A stretch of DNA of 64,000 nucleotides. Origin: Rhizorhabdus sp. Its GTDB lineage: Bacteria; Pseudomonadota; Alphaproteobacteria; Sphingomonadales; Sphingomonadaceae. Below, one piece after another: positions 29,739-35,881 of this stretch. The number at the start of each line of letters is the position of its first letter. Position 1 is the first letter of the stretch. The stretch is taken from contig NZ_JAGMXV010000002.1 in the NCBI RefSeq assembly GCF_018006725.1, positions 1 to 64,000 on the forward strand, in the 5' to 3' direction. A model generated the notes under the pieces. It was given only the letters and a program-made list of their open reading frames with translations. It was not told where the DNA came from and searched no databases. Both the position numbers and the translations under genes were made by a program.

Positions 29739-29755
29739 GTCGCGCGGAGCATAAA

Positions 29756-30026
29756 CTCCTCCCCGGCAACGGGGAGGGGGCCGCCGAAGGCAGTGAGGGA
29801 AAGGGGCCCGCCTCCCGCCCGGCGACATCAGGGAGATGAGGAAGACCCCTCCACCATCCTGCGGATGGTCCCCCTCCCCGTTCCGGGGAGGAACCGGCGC
29901 CTCCCGCCTTCCGCCTCCCCAAATCCTTGGCGCCCTCGGAAACGAACCTTCCCGCGCCACCGGCAGCCATCAATAATTCCTCCCCGGCACGGGGAGGGGG
30001 ACCGGCGAAGCCGGTGGAGGGGAAGG
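29756..30026. repeat. Three REP-like palindromic repeats in a 420-base gene-free stretch
   Basis: Three copies of the ~50-base element seen after trpD lie at 29756-29806, 29846-29895 (inverted) and 29977-30026. Each carries a CCTCCCCG-loop-CGGGGAGG hairpin and a second variable hairpin (e.g. ACCGGC-GAA-GCCGGT), with CCCCTCCACC at one end. No convincing gene lies between the gltA terminator (29738) and the next gene (30161). The spacers (about 40 and 80 bases) are unique sequence. Confidence 0.85.
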
Positions 30027-30757: not shown

Positions 30758-30837
30758 GCTCGCGCTACACCGTTCGGGGGAGTCGATTGCGAACGAGTGG
30801 GAATCCGGTATCATCGGATCTTGGAGAAATAGCCGCC

Positions 30838-31134
30838 GTGACCAATGCCTTGCCCATTTCCATCAATCGCCATGCGACGATTTACCGTTGCCCTCCGGTG
30901 CTCTCCACCGAAGTCGCGGGAGAGGCGACGATGATGGATATGGAAAGCGGCCTCTATTTCGGCTTGGATTCGATCGGAACGGACATGTGGCAGCGGCTCG
31001 AACATCCCCAGAGTCTGGCTGCCCTGTCCGACGGGATGGCACAAGACTATGCCGCCGACGCGGATCGGATCGAACGGGATCTTGGCGCTTTGCTTCTGAC
31101 GATGGCGGACCACGGCCTTGTCGAGTTCCGCTGA
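30838..31134 (+). CDS. PqqD-family lasso peptide leader-binding protein (B1/RRE)
   Basis: A 98-residue PqqD-like protein. In lasso-peptide systems such a free-standing RiPP recognition element (RRE, B1) binds the leader peptide and presents it to the modifying enzymes. The sequence shows the PqqD pattern of a short beta sheet and helices: VLSTEVAGEATMMDMESGLYFGLDSIGTDMWQRLEHPQS, then ERDLGALLLTMADHGLVEF. A GTG at 30838 has GGAG 11 bases upstream and is preferred over a TTG at 30787. No pqq genes are nearby; a lasso cyclase and a precursor are. Confidence 0.85.
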   Translation: MTNALPISINRHATIYRCPPVLSTEVAGEATMMDMESGLYFGLDSIGTDMWQRLEHPQSLAALSDGMAQDYAADADRIERDLGALLLTMADHGLVEFR

Positions 31135-31903
31135 TCGGGCTGCAGCGCAGCAACGATCGGGAGCTGACCTCGCGAAGGACGACTGGCTGACGGCCCGGAT
31201 CGGGCGCAACAGCGTCGCACAGAATCTCGATCAGGCCGTTGCGAAGGGCGCCCTCGAGCGCAACGATAAAGATAGCTATACCCTGCCCGCAGACGACCGT
31301 TCGCATGACCGCACCGCGCGCAATCCGGTGCCTTGGCCCTATCCCTGCCGGAAGCTCCTCTTCCTGTTCGACAATGTCTATGAGCGTCGTCAGGTCCCCT
31401 CGACGTGCCGCAGCTGCTACAAGGTCAAGGTGGCGCCTCGCAAGGTATCGCAGCTTGTGCGCATATTCGATGCCACGGTCGGAAAGCCCTATCCGTCGAA
31501 GTTCCAGCCGGATATGGACGCCCATTACACATCCGACGTCTACGGCGCCTATTTCTACGCTGACGGTCTTGAACAGGCGCGGGCAATTCATCGGGACATC
31601 AGCGCTACATTGATCGAAGACTCTGCGCTTGATGGCGTTCCGATCACGATCAAGCGCGGATGCACGGAATATGAGATGCATTGCGGTCCATCGGACCAGT
31701 ATAGTTTCCCGGATGGGCTGCCGGCGATCGAGGAAAAGCTGCTGGAGATGATCGATATGCCTGCCGGCACATCGAGACACAGTTCCCGCAACCTCATCAT
31801 CCTCATGTGGGTCCGGCAGGCATTCCGCATCGGCGACGACAGCTATCTCGAACTCACGGGTGGACGCCGCCTTTTTCCGGAAACCGTGAAATACGCCCCC
31901 TGA
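31118..31903 (+). CDS. Unrecognised protein of the lasso cluster, with C and CxxC motifs
   Basis: A frame of up to 261 codons between the B1 and kinase genes, with normal coding composition. The only in-frame starts before the conserved-looking part are TTG 31118 (17-base overlap with B1) and GTG 31328. The core (from residue ~70) reads NPVPWPYPCRKLLFLFDNVY, then STCRSCYKVKV with a C-x2-C pair, and later GCTEYEMHCGPSDQ with two more Cys, suggesting bound Zn or an Fe-S cluster. It stands where lasso clusters usually carry the B2 leader protease but lacks a visible Cys-His-Asp transglutaminase pattern. I do not recognise the family. Confidence 0.6.
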   Translation: MSSSADRAAAQQRSGADLAKDDWLTARIGRNSVAQNLDQAVAKGALERNDKDSYTLPADDRSHDRTARNPVPWPYPCRKLLFLFDNVYERRQVPSTCRSCYKVKVAPRKVSQLVRIFDATVGKPYPSKFQPDMDAHYTSDVYGAYFYADGLEQARAIHRDISATLIEDSALDGVPITIKRGCTEYEMHCGPSDQYSFPDGLPAIEEKLLEMIDMPAGTSRHSSRNLIILMWVRQAFRIGDDSYLELTGGRRLFPETVKYAP

Positions 31904-31950
31904 TCGGCCGTCGGCGCGCATCCTACTCTCTTTTTTTCCGGGCAACGAAG

Positions 31951-32874
31951 ATGCACTATGAGCTTTGCGGTCTTAAATTCGCGTCCGAATTGCCTCTCCC
32001 GGAGCTTCTTCCCTGGTCCGGCGACGATCGGCCGGCGGATGTGGACATCATCCTAGGAAGCGTTGGCCCCAGCCTCGACGAGGCAATTCATGTCGGACCT
32101 TTTTTTCAGGCATCGCGCGACGGTAGCTGCCGCTACGAGATTGCCGACGTTGCAGCCTACAGGATCGAGGGCGGGCGTCGCATCACGATTGCGCCGCGCC
32201 TGCCGGTCGGCGAACCCGCAATCCGTGTCTTCCTGCTCGGAAGCGTATTTGGCCTGCTTTGTCACCAGCGCGGCCTGATTCCCCTTCATGCAGGCTGCGT
32301 CGAGATCGACGGAAAAGCCGTCGCCTTCGCGGGCAATTCGGGGGCAGGCAAATCGACGCTCGCAGCCGCGTTCCATCGTCTGGGTTTTCCCATACTCGCT
32401 GATGACGTGACGGTGGTCGATGTAAACGGAGCAGCTCGACCGGTTGTCCTACCATCCTTTCCCGGCATGAGACTTTGGCGCGACACGATGGACGCCCTTG
32501 ATATCTCAAGCGGCGGGCTTGATCGCGTGCGGCCTGATATCGACAAATATCTGATTCCGATCGAACAAAACCCGGTCCGCTCGCCCCTGCCGCTTTCCAT
32601 GGTATTTCACCTGAGGATCGCCAAGGATCATCGGCAGGTTGGCGACCAGTTGCTTGCCGGCTCCTCCGCGCTATCCGCCTTGCTAGACTCGGTCTATCGA
32701 CGCATGTCGGCCTTCCGGATGGGGCGGAGAGAAGCACTGCTCGCCCGGCTCATGCGCGTGCTTGCGGCGCCGTCCGTCGAACTGACCCGGATCATGGACA
32801 TGGATCAGCTCGATGCGACCGTGGACCACATGGTGCGCCGCGTCCGCACGGAGATGGAACTGGTCTCGGGATGA
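31951..32874 (+). CDS. HprK-like serine kinase of a lasso-peptide cluster
   Basis: A 307-residue protein related to HPr kinase/phosphorylase. It has the P-loop GNSGAGKST (residues 128-136) and, as in HprK, an acidic motif shortly after (PILADDVTVVD). In characterised lasso systems (paeninodin type) such kinases phosphorylate the C-terminal Ser of the precursor. No HPr or PTS genes are near, while a lasso precursor ending in Ser is. The ATG at 31951 gives a typical family N-terminus (MHYELCGLKFASELPLPEL). Its stop overlaps the sulfotransferase start (ATGA). Confidence 0.87.
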   Translation: MHYELCGLKFASELPLPELLPWSGDDRPADVDIILGSVGPSLDEAIHVGPFFQASRDGSCRYEIADVAAYRIEGGRRITIAPRLPVGEPAIRVFLLGSVFGLLCHQRGLIPLHAGCVEIDGKAVAFAGNSGAGKSTLAAAFHRLGFPILADDVTVVDVNGAARPVVLPSFPGMRLWRDTMDALDISSGGLDRVRPDIDKYLIPIEQNPVRSPLPLSMVFHLRIAKDHRQVGDQLLAGSSALSALLDSVYRRMSAFRMGRREALLARLMRVLAAPSVELTRIMDMDQLDATVDHMVRRVRTEMELVSG

Positions 32875-33704
32875 GCTGCTATCATTGGCTGGCCTCCTAC
32901 CCCAAGTCGGGAAACACATGGCTGCGGCTCGCCTTGGCAAGCCTCAGTAAGGGCGGCCAGAACCTGGACTTCCGGTCATCCGAACTGTTCGCACCGATCG
33001 CGTGCGATCGCGCCGCAATGGACGAGGTGGCGGACGTCGACAGCGCAGCCCTGACTCTGGCCGAGGAGGAGGCTGCCCGTCCGGCCTTCTTTCGTCTCGA
33101 GGCGGCCTGGCTGGGCAAGCCACAGCTGCGAAAGGTCCATCACGCCTGGACCCGCACGGCTGCGGGCGAACCGCTCTTCCCTCCCGACGTCACGGCAAGC
33201 GCCGTTTACGTCATCCGCGACCCCCGTGACGTTGCCATTTCGCTAGCCCATCACCATGGCTCCAGCATCGATGCCGCCATCGCCTTCATGGACGATCCGG
33301 CTGCCATGCTTGCAGGCGGGTCAGGCTATGGCAGCCCCCAGTTGCGACAAAGGCTGCTGACGTGGAGCGACCATGCGCGCAGCTGGCTTGCCTCCCCAAT
33401 ACAACCACTATTGGTTCGGTTCGAGGACATGCTCGACACCCCTGCGGATTCGCTCGAACGGGTTGCCCGCCATCTCCGCTGGAACCCGTCTGCCAGCGCA
33501 ATAGCGGGCGCTGTAGAGGCGAGCCGCTTCGACGCCCTCCAGGCACAGGAAGAACGGCACGGCTTTCGTGAGCGGACGCGGGCAGAAGTTCCCTTCTTCA
33601 GACGCGGCTTAGCAGGCGGGTGGCGCGACAGCCTCACACCGGCGCAGAGGCAGCGCATCGAAGCCAGCCACGGCGAGGCTATGGCGATGTTTGGCTATCT
33701 TTGA
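32871..33704 (+). CDS. PAPS-dependent sulfotransferase in the lasso cluster
   Basis: A 277-residue cytosolic-type sulfotransferase that would move a sulfuryl group from PAPS to a hydroxyl or amine. Visible motifs are the 5'-phosphosulfate loop YPKSGNTWLRLAL (residues 10-22), the 3'-phosphate site VIRDPRDVAISLAHHH (about 113-128) and the C-terminal FFRRGLAGGWRDSLT (about 242-256), corresponding to the RKGxxGDWK region. It is translationally coupled to the kinase gene and converges on the cyclase gene with only four bases between stops. The most likely substrate is the lasso peptide, which is inference. Confidence 0.88.
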   Translation: MSCYHWLASYPKSGNTWLRLALASLSKGGQNLDFRSSELFAPIACDRAAMDEVADVDSAALTLAEEEAARPAFFRLEAAWLGKPQLRKVHHAWTRTAAGEPLFPPDVTASAVYVIRDPRDVAISLAHHHGSSIDAAIAFMDDPAAMLAGGSGYGSPQLRQRLLTWSDHARSWLASPIQPLLVRFEDMLDTPADSLERVARHLRWNPSASAIAGAVEASRFDALQAQEERHGFRERTRAEVPFFRRGLAGGWRDSLTPAQRQRIEASHGEAMAMFGYL

Positions 33705-33708
33705 CCTT

Positions 33709-35592
33709 TCATCCGCCATTGCTGGGGTCAAGCCAGCGCAGGAAGGAACCTACATGGAGGCCCCGCACCAGGGTCGACCGATAGGCAGGCCCCGCCGCCG
33801 TCGCAGCTTCGGCGGTCGCGGGCCATTGGTCGAGCAGGCGCTTGAGCCGTGGCAGGTCCAGCGCCTGCCGCGCGAGGGGCGAGGTCTCGATCTCTTCCAG
33901 CTGCTCGTGCAGGCGATCCCGCCGCAGCCTCAGATTGTGAAACCATTCTGCATTCTGTTCGGCCTTGACGCTGTTGTCGCGAACCTCCTTCGGGAGCACA
34001 TCGCGGAAAGCCTCACGCGCCAGCCAGCGGAAGCGGCCATCCCGCACGAACGCTCTTTCAGGCAGTGACAGACAGAAATCGACCACCCGGCGGTCACTGA
34101 ACGGACTCGTATGGTCGACTCCGGTCAGAGCGCGCAAAGCTGCGATATTGTCGACGGTCCCCGCCCGCCGCCGCATGTAGATGTCCACCGCTTCCCGATA
34201 TCCGGGCGGGCGATGGCGAAAGCCTCCCGGAAACCCCTCTTCGATCAGGAGCTCGGTCACGCCGGCCTCTTGGGCGAAGTCCGGGTGAATGGGGCTGTAG
34301 TGGCGCCAATCCCCGGGGCGTGGCCCCTTGCCACGTATCAAATTCCATGTGCCGCCGAAGAAAGCCATATCGATATGGTCGCGCAGGCGGCCCTGCCCCC
34401 CGCGAGCCAGACGCCACGCTTCGAGCGCCGCTCTCGCTGGCTCGCCCTGACGAACCAATGCCGACAGCGACCCGCGGTGGGTGATCGACATCTCACCCTC
34501 GTCACCGGTCATCAGCATCTGCACACCGGCAGCCTGCGCGTGCTGCCACGCACCGAGCAGCCAACCGATATTCGGCGCGAGCCCGATGGGCTGGCCCGTC
34601 GCTACGAAAAGATGCGTCGGGTCGACGTCTACCCTGTGAACCGGAGGCATGATGTGATCGATCCGCAAATTGCCGTGGCAGCGCGCCAGCGCCTCCAGTT
34701 GCGGACGACCGTCCGGCACCCAGCCGGGATGCACGGCCAGGTCCTGATCGCCTGGCACGAGGGCGATACCGAGAACGGATTCAGGCGCCCGCACCGCCGC
34801 CGCCACGCCAGCCACGATCGAAGAATCGAGACCACCGCTGAGCGAAACCGCAACCGGCCCGGTCCGGGCACGATCGCATATAGCGCGCTCCAGCAGCTCG
34901 CGCGCGCCTTCGGTCCATTCGGAGGGTTTGACCGGACCGGGGCGGCGAAACGGGCGCCAGTTCGCCTCGAGCCGCAATCGCTCGGCCGTGATTATGGCCG
35001 TCGTGCCCGGCAGGACATGGCGGATGTCGCGATAGACCGTCCGGTCGCCCATGCCGGGATGAAGTGCTACGAATTCGGCCAGCGCCTGCCGATCCAGGTC
35101 GCGGGGCACGTCGGGAAGCGCGAGCAGAGCGCGAACGCTGGTGGCGAAAGCGACGAGTCGGGTATCACGATAATAATATAGCGAGCGGGATGCAGAGGGA
35201 TCCCTCGCAAGAATCAGACACGCATTCGCAGCGTCCCAGATCGCCCACGCAAACTCGCCCAGCATCTCGCGCGGTGCATCCGTCCCCCAGCGGTCGAACG
35301 CAGCCAGGACCAGCGTCTTGTCATCGGGCTCCCGATCGGACAGATTCAGACGTGCCGCCAGATGGACGCGATCATCGACGCGTCCGTCGAATAGCGAAAC
35401 TATGGGCCCGTCCGGCTTTTGTCGGGAAGAAGATCTACCGCGTTCCGCGAGCGCGGCGACAAGGGGAGGCGCCGAGACTATCGTCGGCTTCAGATGACCT
35501 GTTGCCGTCGCTGCAGAAATCAATCGGGCCGAGTCACCCGGGTCAAGCGGGCCCCTGCCATCCCAGCGAACGATGCCGGCGAACGCGCTCAT
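33709..35592 (-). CDS. Lasso peptide macrolactam synthetase, asparagine-synthetase-like (C protein)
   Basis: A 627-residue protein with the two-domain architecture of AsnB. It would adenylate the side-chain carboxyl of ring Asp/Glu and close the macrolactam on the core N-terminus. The PP-loop SLSGGLDSSIVAG is intact (about residues 248-260). The N-terminus is MSAFAGIVRW: the glutaminase nucleophile Cys2 of AsnB is Ser, so ammonia production is not expected, fitting a lasso cyclase. No clear ribosome-binding site precedes the ATG; instead a perfect hairpin ends six bases upstream. The precursor gene lies 62 bases upstream. Confidence 0.9.
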   Translation of the reverse strand: MSAFAGIVRWDGRGPLDPGDSARLISAATATGHLKPTIVSAPPLVAALAERGRSSSRQKPDGPIVSLFDGRVDDRVHLAARLNLSDREPDDKTLVLAAFDRWGTDAPREMLGEFAWAIWDAANACLILARDPSASRSLYYYRDTRLVAFATSVRALLALPDVPRDLDRQALAEFVALHPGMGDRTVYRDIRHVLPGTTAIITAERLRLEANWRPFRRPGPVKPSEWTEGARELLERAICDRARTGPVAVSLSGGLDSSIVAGVAAAVRAPESVLGIALVPGDQDLAVHPGWVPDGRPQLEALARCHGNLRIDHIMPPVHRVDVDPTHLFVATGQPIGLAPNIGWLLGAWQHAQAAGVQMLMTGDEGEMSITHRGSLSALVRQGEPARAALEAWRLARGGQGRLRDHIDMAFFGGTWNLIRGKGPRPGDWRHYSPIHPDFAQEAGVTELLIEEGFPGGFRHRPPGYREAVDIYMRRRAGTVDNIAALRALTGVDHTSPFSDRRVVDFCLSLPERAFVRDGRFRWLAREAFRDVLPKEVRDNSVKAEQNAEWFHNLRLRRDRLHEQLEEIETSPLARQALDLPRLKRLLDQWPATAEAATAAGPAYRSTLVRGLHVGSFLRWLDPSNGG

Positions 35593-35598
35593 GCCATG

Positions 35599-35623
35599 CG
35601 CTGAAAACGCAGCGTTTTCAGCG
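35599..35623 (-). promoter_or_regulatory. Perfect hairpin between lasso precursor and cyclase genes
   Basis: An 11-base perfect inverted repeat (CGCTGAAAACG and CGTTTTCAGCG) with a three-base loop fills the centre of the precursor-cyclase gap. There is no following T-run. Hairpins between the A gene and the processing genes are known from several lasso operons and are thought to raise the precursor-to-enzyme ratio. Here the 3' arm covers the place where the cyclase Shine-Dalgarno would be. Confidence 0.85.
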
Positions 35624-35654
35624 TAGATGCTTCAACGTGCAAACGAAAGGAGCG

Positions 35655-35816
35655 TCAGGAGGTTGGCGCGAATATCGACGAGCCGTCGTTGCGGGACGAG
35701 GTGCTGCCGCTGCGGGTAATTTCATCGACATGCTCGACTTTCAGCACAGGCGGGTGCCACGGCCGCAGAGGAGCCTGATTGTCGCGCTCGGGCATCCGTC
35801 CAACAGTGTCAGTCAT
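35655..35816 (-). CDS. Lasso peptide precursor
   Basis: A 53-residue peptide from ATG 35816, which has AGGAAAGG nine bases upstream. The leader of 35 residues contains W20-HP-P23-V-L25, matching the YxxPxL motif bound by B1 proteins, and ends in Thr34-Arg35, with the conserved Thr at position -2. The predicted core is SGSTSSRNDGSSIFAPTS: Ser1 could be joined to Asp9, giving a nine-residue ring and a nine-residue tail ending in Ser18, the target site for an HprK-like kinase. The Ser1 N-terminus is uncommon but allowed. The neighbouring cyclase, B1 and kinase support the call. Confidence 0.82.
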   Translation of the reverse strand: MTDTVGRMPERDNQAPLRPWHPPVLKVEHVDEITRSGSTSSRNDGSSIFAPTS

Positions 35817-35852
35817 CGGTATCTGCCTTTCCTGCAACCCTATTCCTGAAGG

Positions 35853-35881
35853 TGCATAGGTAGCGACCCAATGCCTGTCAA
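35853..35881 (-). promoter_or_regulatory. Putative sigma-70 promoter of the lasso precursor
   Basis: On the minus strand a perfect -35 TTGACA (35881-35876) is followed 17 bases later by the weak -10 TATGCA (35858-35853). Transcription would begin near 35846, giving a leader of about 30 bases before the precursor ATG at 35816. It lies just past the ung stop (35924). Confidence 0.55.

Follow-up and report, generated by a model that had tools for sequence, protein, structure and literature searches.

Kinases of the paeninodin type phosphorylate the C-terminal Ser of a lasso peptide precursor. The clusters of PadeK, ThcoK and SyanK, in the sections of the reports covered here (PMC9266682, PMC8498205), combine a B1 protein, a cyclase and a precursor ending in Ser with an HprK-like kinase that has the residues His-Lys-Asp-Asp (HKDD), which the corresponding part of a review describes as essential for lasso kinases by mutagenesis (PMC9266682). 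We found the same components in a segment of six genes (30787-35837) within a stretch of 64,000 nucleotides of Rhizorhabdus sp. (hereafter the window). The segment differs from the clusters described in those sections in that a sulfotransferase (S) is coupled to the kinase (K; the Sphingobium yanoikuyae cluster lies outside this comparison), a protein with four invariant Cys (X) is added, a local leader peptidase (B2) is missing and no transporter is found among the six genes. The locus is a real and recurring variant of the kinase-bearing lasso clusters. Since K of the window keeps HKDD and S keeps the motifs for binding 3'-phosphoadenosine 5'-phosphosulfate (PAPS), phosphorylation combined with Ser/Thr sulfation is the likeliest reading, and we put the probability at roughly 55% that this is a lasso-type cluster in which the coupled K and S add phosphate and sulfate to hydroxyl groups of Ser/Thr residues in the precursor, the C-terminal Ser most likely being one of them.

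The genes B1, X, K and S follow each other on the plus strand and are faced on the minus strand by the precursor gene (A) and then the cyclase gene (C):

30838..31134, plus strand: B1, PqqD-like leader-binding protein (GTG start at 30838; a TTG at 30787 is also possible)
31118..31903, plus strand: X, 261-residue protein with four invariant Cys, without assigned family; overlaps the B1 stop
31951..32874, plus strand: K, HprK-like lasso kinase with HKDD intact (profile matches, motifs, alignment)
32871..33704, plus strand: S, PAPS-dependent sulfotransferase (PF00685, 2.9e-20; motifs; ATGA overlap with K)
33709..35592, minus strand: C, AsnB-like lasso-type cyclase without N-terminal glutaminase Cys (domains, start sequence)
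35655..35816, minus strand: precursor peptide A, 53 residues (WHPPVL leader, C-terminal Ser)
35658..35711, minus strand: predicted core SGSTSSRNDGSSIFAPTS (boundary inferred by comparison with other precursors)

Open reading frame (ORF) calls and domain matches confirmed all six genes listed in a preliminary description of this DNA. S matches PF00685 with 73.2 bits (cut-off 22) and carries PKSGNTW, RDPRD, KVHH and RxGxxGxW, the set of PAPS-binding motifs, so that its assignment as a sulfotransferase with these motifs is borne out; an APS kinase (APS, adenosine 5'-phosphosulfate), for PAPS, is encoded in the genome. The description of K as an HprK-like kinase with an intact P-loop agrees with its Walker A sequence GNSGAGKST, and K moreover aligns with the lasso kinases with HKDD intact. 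The coupling of the two genes by ATGA was recovered as an overlap of the K stop and the S start at 32871-32874. C has Asn_synthase (PF00733) and GATase_7 matches that are both over cut-off, an SGGLDSS motif and the N-terminus MSAF, without Cys after Met, as expected from its earlier description as an AsnB-like cyclase that lacks the glutaminase Cys. B1 matches PF05402 (PqqD) with 50.8 bits (cut-off 23.4). Judged by their motifs, S and K of the window look catalytically complete. The stop codons of the convergent genes S and C are 4 bases apart, and the segment is flanked by a small gene without Pfam family and by an ung-like gene (named by eye). Repeated ctccccggnnacggggagg-like palindromes were seen at 29740-30010, in the interval that separates the cluster from a gltA-like gene (named by eye).

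The likely start of the precursor is the ATG at 35816, which is preceded by AGGAAAGG. Its leader holds WHPPVL (a W..P.L motif), its last residue is Ser, and because it contains no Tyr this residue is ruled out as sulfate acceptor. The acceptor of a lasso ring is expected at position 7-9, and Asp8/Asp9 of the predicted core provide an acidic residue in this range. A register with Thr at -2 would give the core SGSTSSRNDGSSIFAPTS and a Ser1-Asp9 ring, whereas with Trp at -17 a Gly1-Asp8 ring would result; the C-terminal Ser is the same under either boundary. In the parts of the literature covered, Thr at -2 is described as highly conserved and Gly, Cys, Ser and Ala are listed as residues observed at position 1 (PMC12670498), and Tyr stands at -17 in the register of PMC10368454. 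The closest relative of the precursor was found in Aerophototrophica crusticola (L022; PWSPPVLTVGSVNEVTRAGTTSSRNDGASVFSPS versus PWHPPVLKVEHVDEITRSGSTSSRNDGSSIFAPTS in the window), the two having TSSRNDG and the C-terminal Ser in common; a cyclase 64% identical to C of the window is present in the same genome. From these genes and motifs we infer a pathway, including its order, acceptors and product: B1 would hold the leader via WHPPVL, the C-terminal Ser would receive a phosphate from K, and a Ser or Thr would be sulfated by S with PAPS as donor, both modifications preceding threading and closure. C would then close the ring between Ser1 (or Gly1) and Asp, and the leader would be cleaved by a single orphan B2 encoded elsewhere in the genome. 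The predicted product is likely to carry both phosphate and sulfate.

K-S pairs, with K preceding S on the same strand, were gathered in four ways: via the cyclase, via X, via S on plasmids and via S in genomes of the class. The cyclase route covered 298 genomes of the window's family (14/298 matched), and 18 of the 19 cyclase places beyond the window's own were taken (G151 was left out); the X route used relatives of X among genome contigs. On plasmids, K adjoins S in all four records with a relative of S (4/4). In the class, the Alphaproteobacteria (with Tistrella, UR115 and Thalassobaculum among the genomes), S was found at 1e-30 in 86/385 genomes, and the S set consists of 40 regions from the top of that list and the earlier loci, not of every S. 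By profile labels this yielded 40 K-S pairs in 38 loci; one pair belongs to a Magnetococcales bin (L027). A further 24 loci contain 46 S genes that lack a K partner. The preliminary description had made its reading depend on the conservation of K and S beside cyclases, and C is indeed present in the stretch at 33/38 K-S loci, the others being L167 (cut by a contig end) and L126, L129, L165 and L166 of Tistrella. A further kinase survey added nine pairs in 8 stretches (C in 6/8), which stand outside the S tree, the Mantel test and the precursor count given below. Seen from the cyclase side, K-S was found in the stretch at 8 of 19 loci (the window and 18 others), K alone at 5 and neither gene at 6; the pair is common at cyclase loci of the window's family, not universal.

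The precursor type recurs as well. With one fixed pattern, a W..P.x ORF with C-terminal Ser was found at 29/38 K-S loci, and 37 of the 52 motif ORFs at K-S loci end in Ser versus 0/3 at the 24 loci with S only, where shorter stretches were scanned. The Ser-ending precursor of L022 was found by eye, as it is outside the length limit of the pattern. As both the pairing and the precursor type recur elsewhere, the arrangement in the window reflects more than chance. At L126, L129, L165 and L166, K-S pairs are accompanied by two or three Ser-ending precursor-like genes with no cyclase in the stretch; the cyclase matches and the single B2 of these Tistrella genomes lie elsewhere. Three cyclase loci of the window's genus (L079, L080, L081) have Ser-ending precursors and lack a kinase in the stretch; the contig of L079 carries one ~12 kb away (L246).

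Another important finding was that the sulfotransferases separate according to the presence of the kinase. In a tree of 85 S rows (45/46 unpaired S passed the length filter) one branch splits the 40 K-paired from the 45 unpaired sequences (100/100, in all 200 bootstrap trees; 0/500 shuffles), from which it follows that a distinct group of sulfotransferases goes with this kinase in these bacteria. The distances of K and S correlate (Mantel r 0.74, 0/5000, n 39, with one of the 40 pairs excluded by length). The S tree bears on the explanation that S modifies a non-lasso target, e.g. a glycan or lipid, as a resistance or export partner in the cluster. Arrays that contain no lasso genes do include unpaired relatives of S (L176 has 11 S matches), but the K-paired S form a separate group in the tree, each beside K, and the stretches with the pairs in Tistrella contain precursor-like genes and are otherwise devoid of lasso genes, so that we consider such a target improbable. 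Arrays of 4 to 11 S-profile matches of the unpaired group, without kinase or lasso genes, were seen at L176, L183 and L189. In G318 a sulfotransferase next to an intact kinase (L255, 3947-4573) consists of two profile pieces and is possibly a broken gene.

The kinases of the pairs are less uniform. HKDD is complete in 30 of the first 40 pairs, the exceptions being L076, L078, L082, L126, L128, L129, L162, L165, L166 and L167_3273; S keeps its PAPS residues in 8 of these ten and is also changed in L128 and L167_3273. A survey of the class, restricted to stronger matches outside the earlier set and without L275 (a repeat of L129), brought the numbers to 49 S-adjacent and 31 other kinases (for L078 the longer kinase piece alone was used). 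The catalytic His is lost, mostly together with other residues, in 11/49 S-adjacent kinases versus 1/31 others (Fisher p 0.024 on related rows), and the sole case among the others lies at an S locus; counted by stretch, the loss occurs in 12/51 with S versus 0/29 without S (Fisher on rows p 0.003, the rows again being related). Asp-to-Glu changes alone, which were not counted as loss, are found with and without an adjacent S (HKDE next to S, HKED in three of the other kinases). The kinase tree needs 7 changes for catalytic loss. These sequences provide a lead that in some lineages S seems independent of kinase catalysis.

The same losses speak for an alternative in which S sulfates the C-terminal Ser in place of the phosphate and K at loci with S acts mainly as a docking partner, bringing the tail of the peptide to S; K of the window could even so be catalytically active, and either of the two +80 modifications would then result. 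In line with this, seven of the nine lost-His cases with an aligned S keep the S motifs (not L128 and L167_3273), the precursors at L076, L078, L082, L126, L162, L165 and L166 still end in Ser, and Thalassobaculum has a degenerate K beside S plus a separate intact K. Nevertheless, K of the window keeps HKDD, the definition of loss was chosen after the rows had been seen, the stretches were short, and the search profile was built from HKDD kinases only. The rows are moreover related, and a phylogeny-aware test, with 4 supported pairs, cannot reach 0.05. Other intact kinases in Tistrella and G289 could also phosphorylate in trans. We therefore regard a docking role of K in place of phosphorylation as rather unlikely. 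The window's genome has another K-S locus (L078, G000:C192, 8617-9502), with a kinase that has SKDG instead of HKDD and whose two profile pieces lie in different frames; the same SKDG residues occur in its relative L082 (G289), there within a single profile match.

Several observations weigh against phosphorylation and sulfation of a lasso precursor in the window. The matches to the specific models are low: B1 scores 41.5 bits with the lasso PqqD model NF033536 (cut-off 80), the best NCBIfam match of C is the lasso cyclase model NF033535 (8e-56) at 189.9 bits, below its cut-off of 525, and K is under the cut-off of both Hpr_kinase_C (Pfam) and HprK_rel_A (NCBIfam). The loss of the catalytic His in 11/49 S-adjacent kinases implies that two modifications cannot be assumed wherever the pair is present. 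Distances of C and S (0.70) and of C and K (0.61) also correlate, compared to 0.71 for K and S on the same 32 loci, and the K-S correlation is therefore not special to the pair. Among the precursors, both candidates at L199 and one of three at L165 lack a C-terminal Ser, eight K-S loci gave no W..P.x ORF under the fixed pattern, and three Ser-ending ORFs look like chance matches. S could have another substrate. Finally, the assignment of a B2 acting in trans is based on a draft genome of 462 contigs with 7.12% contamination.

We observed no match to B2 (PF13471) within the window. The genome (G000) has one such match, an orphan on contig C76 (79.1 bits) that adjoins DoxX-like and alpha/beta-hydrolase-like genes (named by eye) in a neighbourhood syntenic with that in G289 (main ORFs with 74 to 97.5% identity). 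As this single orphan stands against four cyclase matches in the genome, B2 is probably shared in trans, which is the simplest reading, although some of the cyclase matches could be other AsnB-like enzymes. An excess of cyclase over B2 matches was also found in G289 (7:2), G571 (6:1), G474 (4:1), G346 (4:1), G298 (4:2), G299 (3:1), G155 (3:2) and G408 (4:3), but not in UR115 (1:1), G582 (1:1) and G629 (2:2). Of 14 genomes of the window's genus, eight contain B2 as well as the cyclase and five lack the two genes; in the remaining genome B2 is present and no cyclase matched at 1e-25. The missing B2 could alternatively mean that the window holds a decaying lasso cluster without product, and the kinase of L078, with its profile pieces in different frames, would fit such decay. 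The genes in the window, however, are all open and K and S are motif-complete, and while B2 is absent from the stretch at 16/38 K-S loci, all 10 host genomes have a B2 elsewhere; decay is thus very improbable. The parts of the open literature covered here gave no report of a B2 shared between loci.

No NCBIfam model matched X, and no Pfam match exceeded its cut-off. Its residues Cys77, Cys97, Cys100 and Cys182 are invariant in 30/30 aligned rows, that of the window included. The family comprises 40 proteins including that of the window, and at least 491 by profile, of which, among the matches listed, 120 are without Pfam domain. K-S-C is present at 10/14 strong X loci and also at Thalassobaculum; X is absent from 26/38 K-S loci and rare in genomes (5/385). 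AlphaFold models reached a pLDDT (predicted local distance difference test score) of 90.4 for X of the window and 88.5, and no solved fold stood out among those considered, which included the LanKC phosphoserine lyase fold. We read X as a putative metal-site accessory protein belonging to part of the K-S loci, and regard a joint role with S as no more than a lead. A distant form of X is fused behind TPR repeats in, for instance, Pelagibacter and Prochlorococcus (10/10 proteins scanned) and keeps the four Cys and an IKRGC motif. At L036-L046 such an X-like domain behind TPR was seen in Pelagibacter, Prochlorococcus, SUP05 and SAR116, twice near sulfotransferases.

Taken further, the loci might represent an Alphaproteobacterial family of sulfated lasso peptides with a dedicated S and an HprK-like partner, in which the kinase became a pseudokinase in several lineages, phosphate was swapped for sulfate and B2 is shared; we put this forward tentatively, as possible but doubtful. 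If phosphorylation and sulfation by a dedicated K-S pair hold true, sulfation would be added to lasso tailoring, and a lasso peptide with +80 Da would not have to be a phosphorylated one. Should the pattern of kinases losing catalytic residues only where S is present hold, it would mark an enzyme turned docking partner, and a protease shared between loci would explain why some lasso clusters seem incomplete to genome miners.

The phosphorylated and possibly sulfated lasso peptide proposed in the preliminary description gains from the recurrence of the K-S pair beside cyclases, while the gene pairing is less novel than implied there: the parts of PMC8498205 and PMC4289311 covered hold precedents for Gram-positive bacteria, as genes only. 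No sulfated lasso peptide product was found in the parts of the open literature covered, most subscription papers being outside that scope. Related combinations have been described for other bacteria, again as far as the parts of the sources covered go. The bsf cluster of Bradymonas resembles the window in having a kinase that acts on a precursor Ser with the aid of B1, and related leaders were noted in Sphingomonadales; it differs in having Ile at -2 and Ser3 as the site, and the parts covered name no sulfotransferase (PMC10368454). A list for Pontixanthobacter places genes for B2, a sulfotransferase, a hypothetical protein, PqqD and an Asn synthase-related protein close together, given as halotolerance-linked and not as a pathway (PMC10040529). 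Some Gram-positive lasso clusters likewise have a sulfotransferase gene, and HPr kinase genes are described there as well: a putative sulfotransferase gene is present in some clusters of Firmicutes (PMC8498205, relating Zhu 2016c), and a survey of 2014 found HPr kinase and sulfotransferase genes in some clusters of anaerobes (PMC4289311). In Firmicutes the sulfotransferase gene stands at the start of the cluster (PMC8498205), whereas in the Alphaproteobacteria described here it forms a fixed pair with the kinase gene and belongs to a sulfotransferase group of its own.

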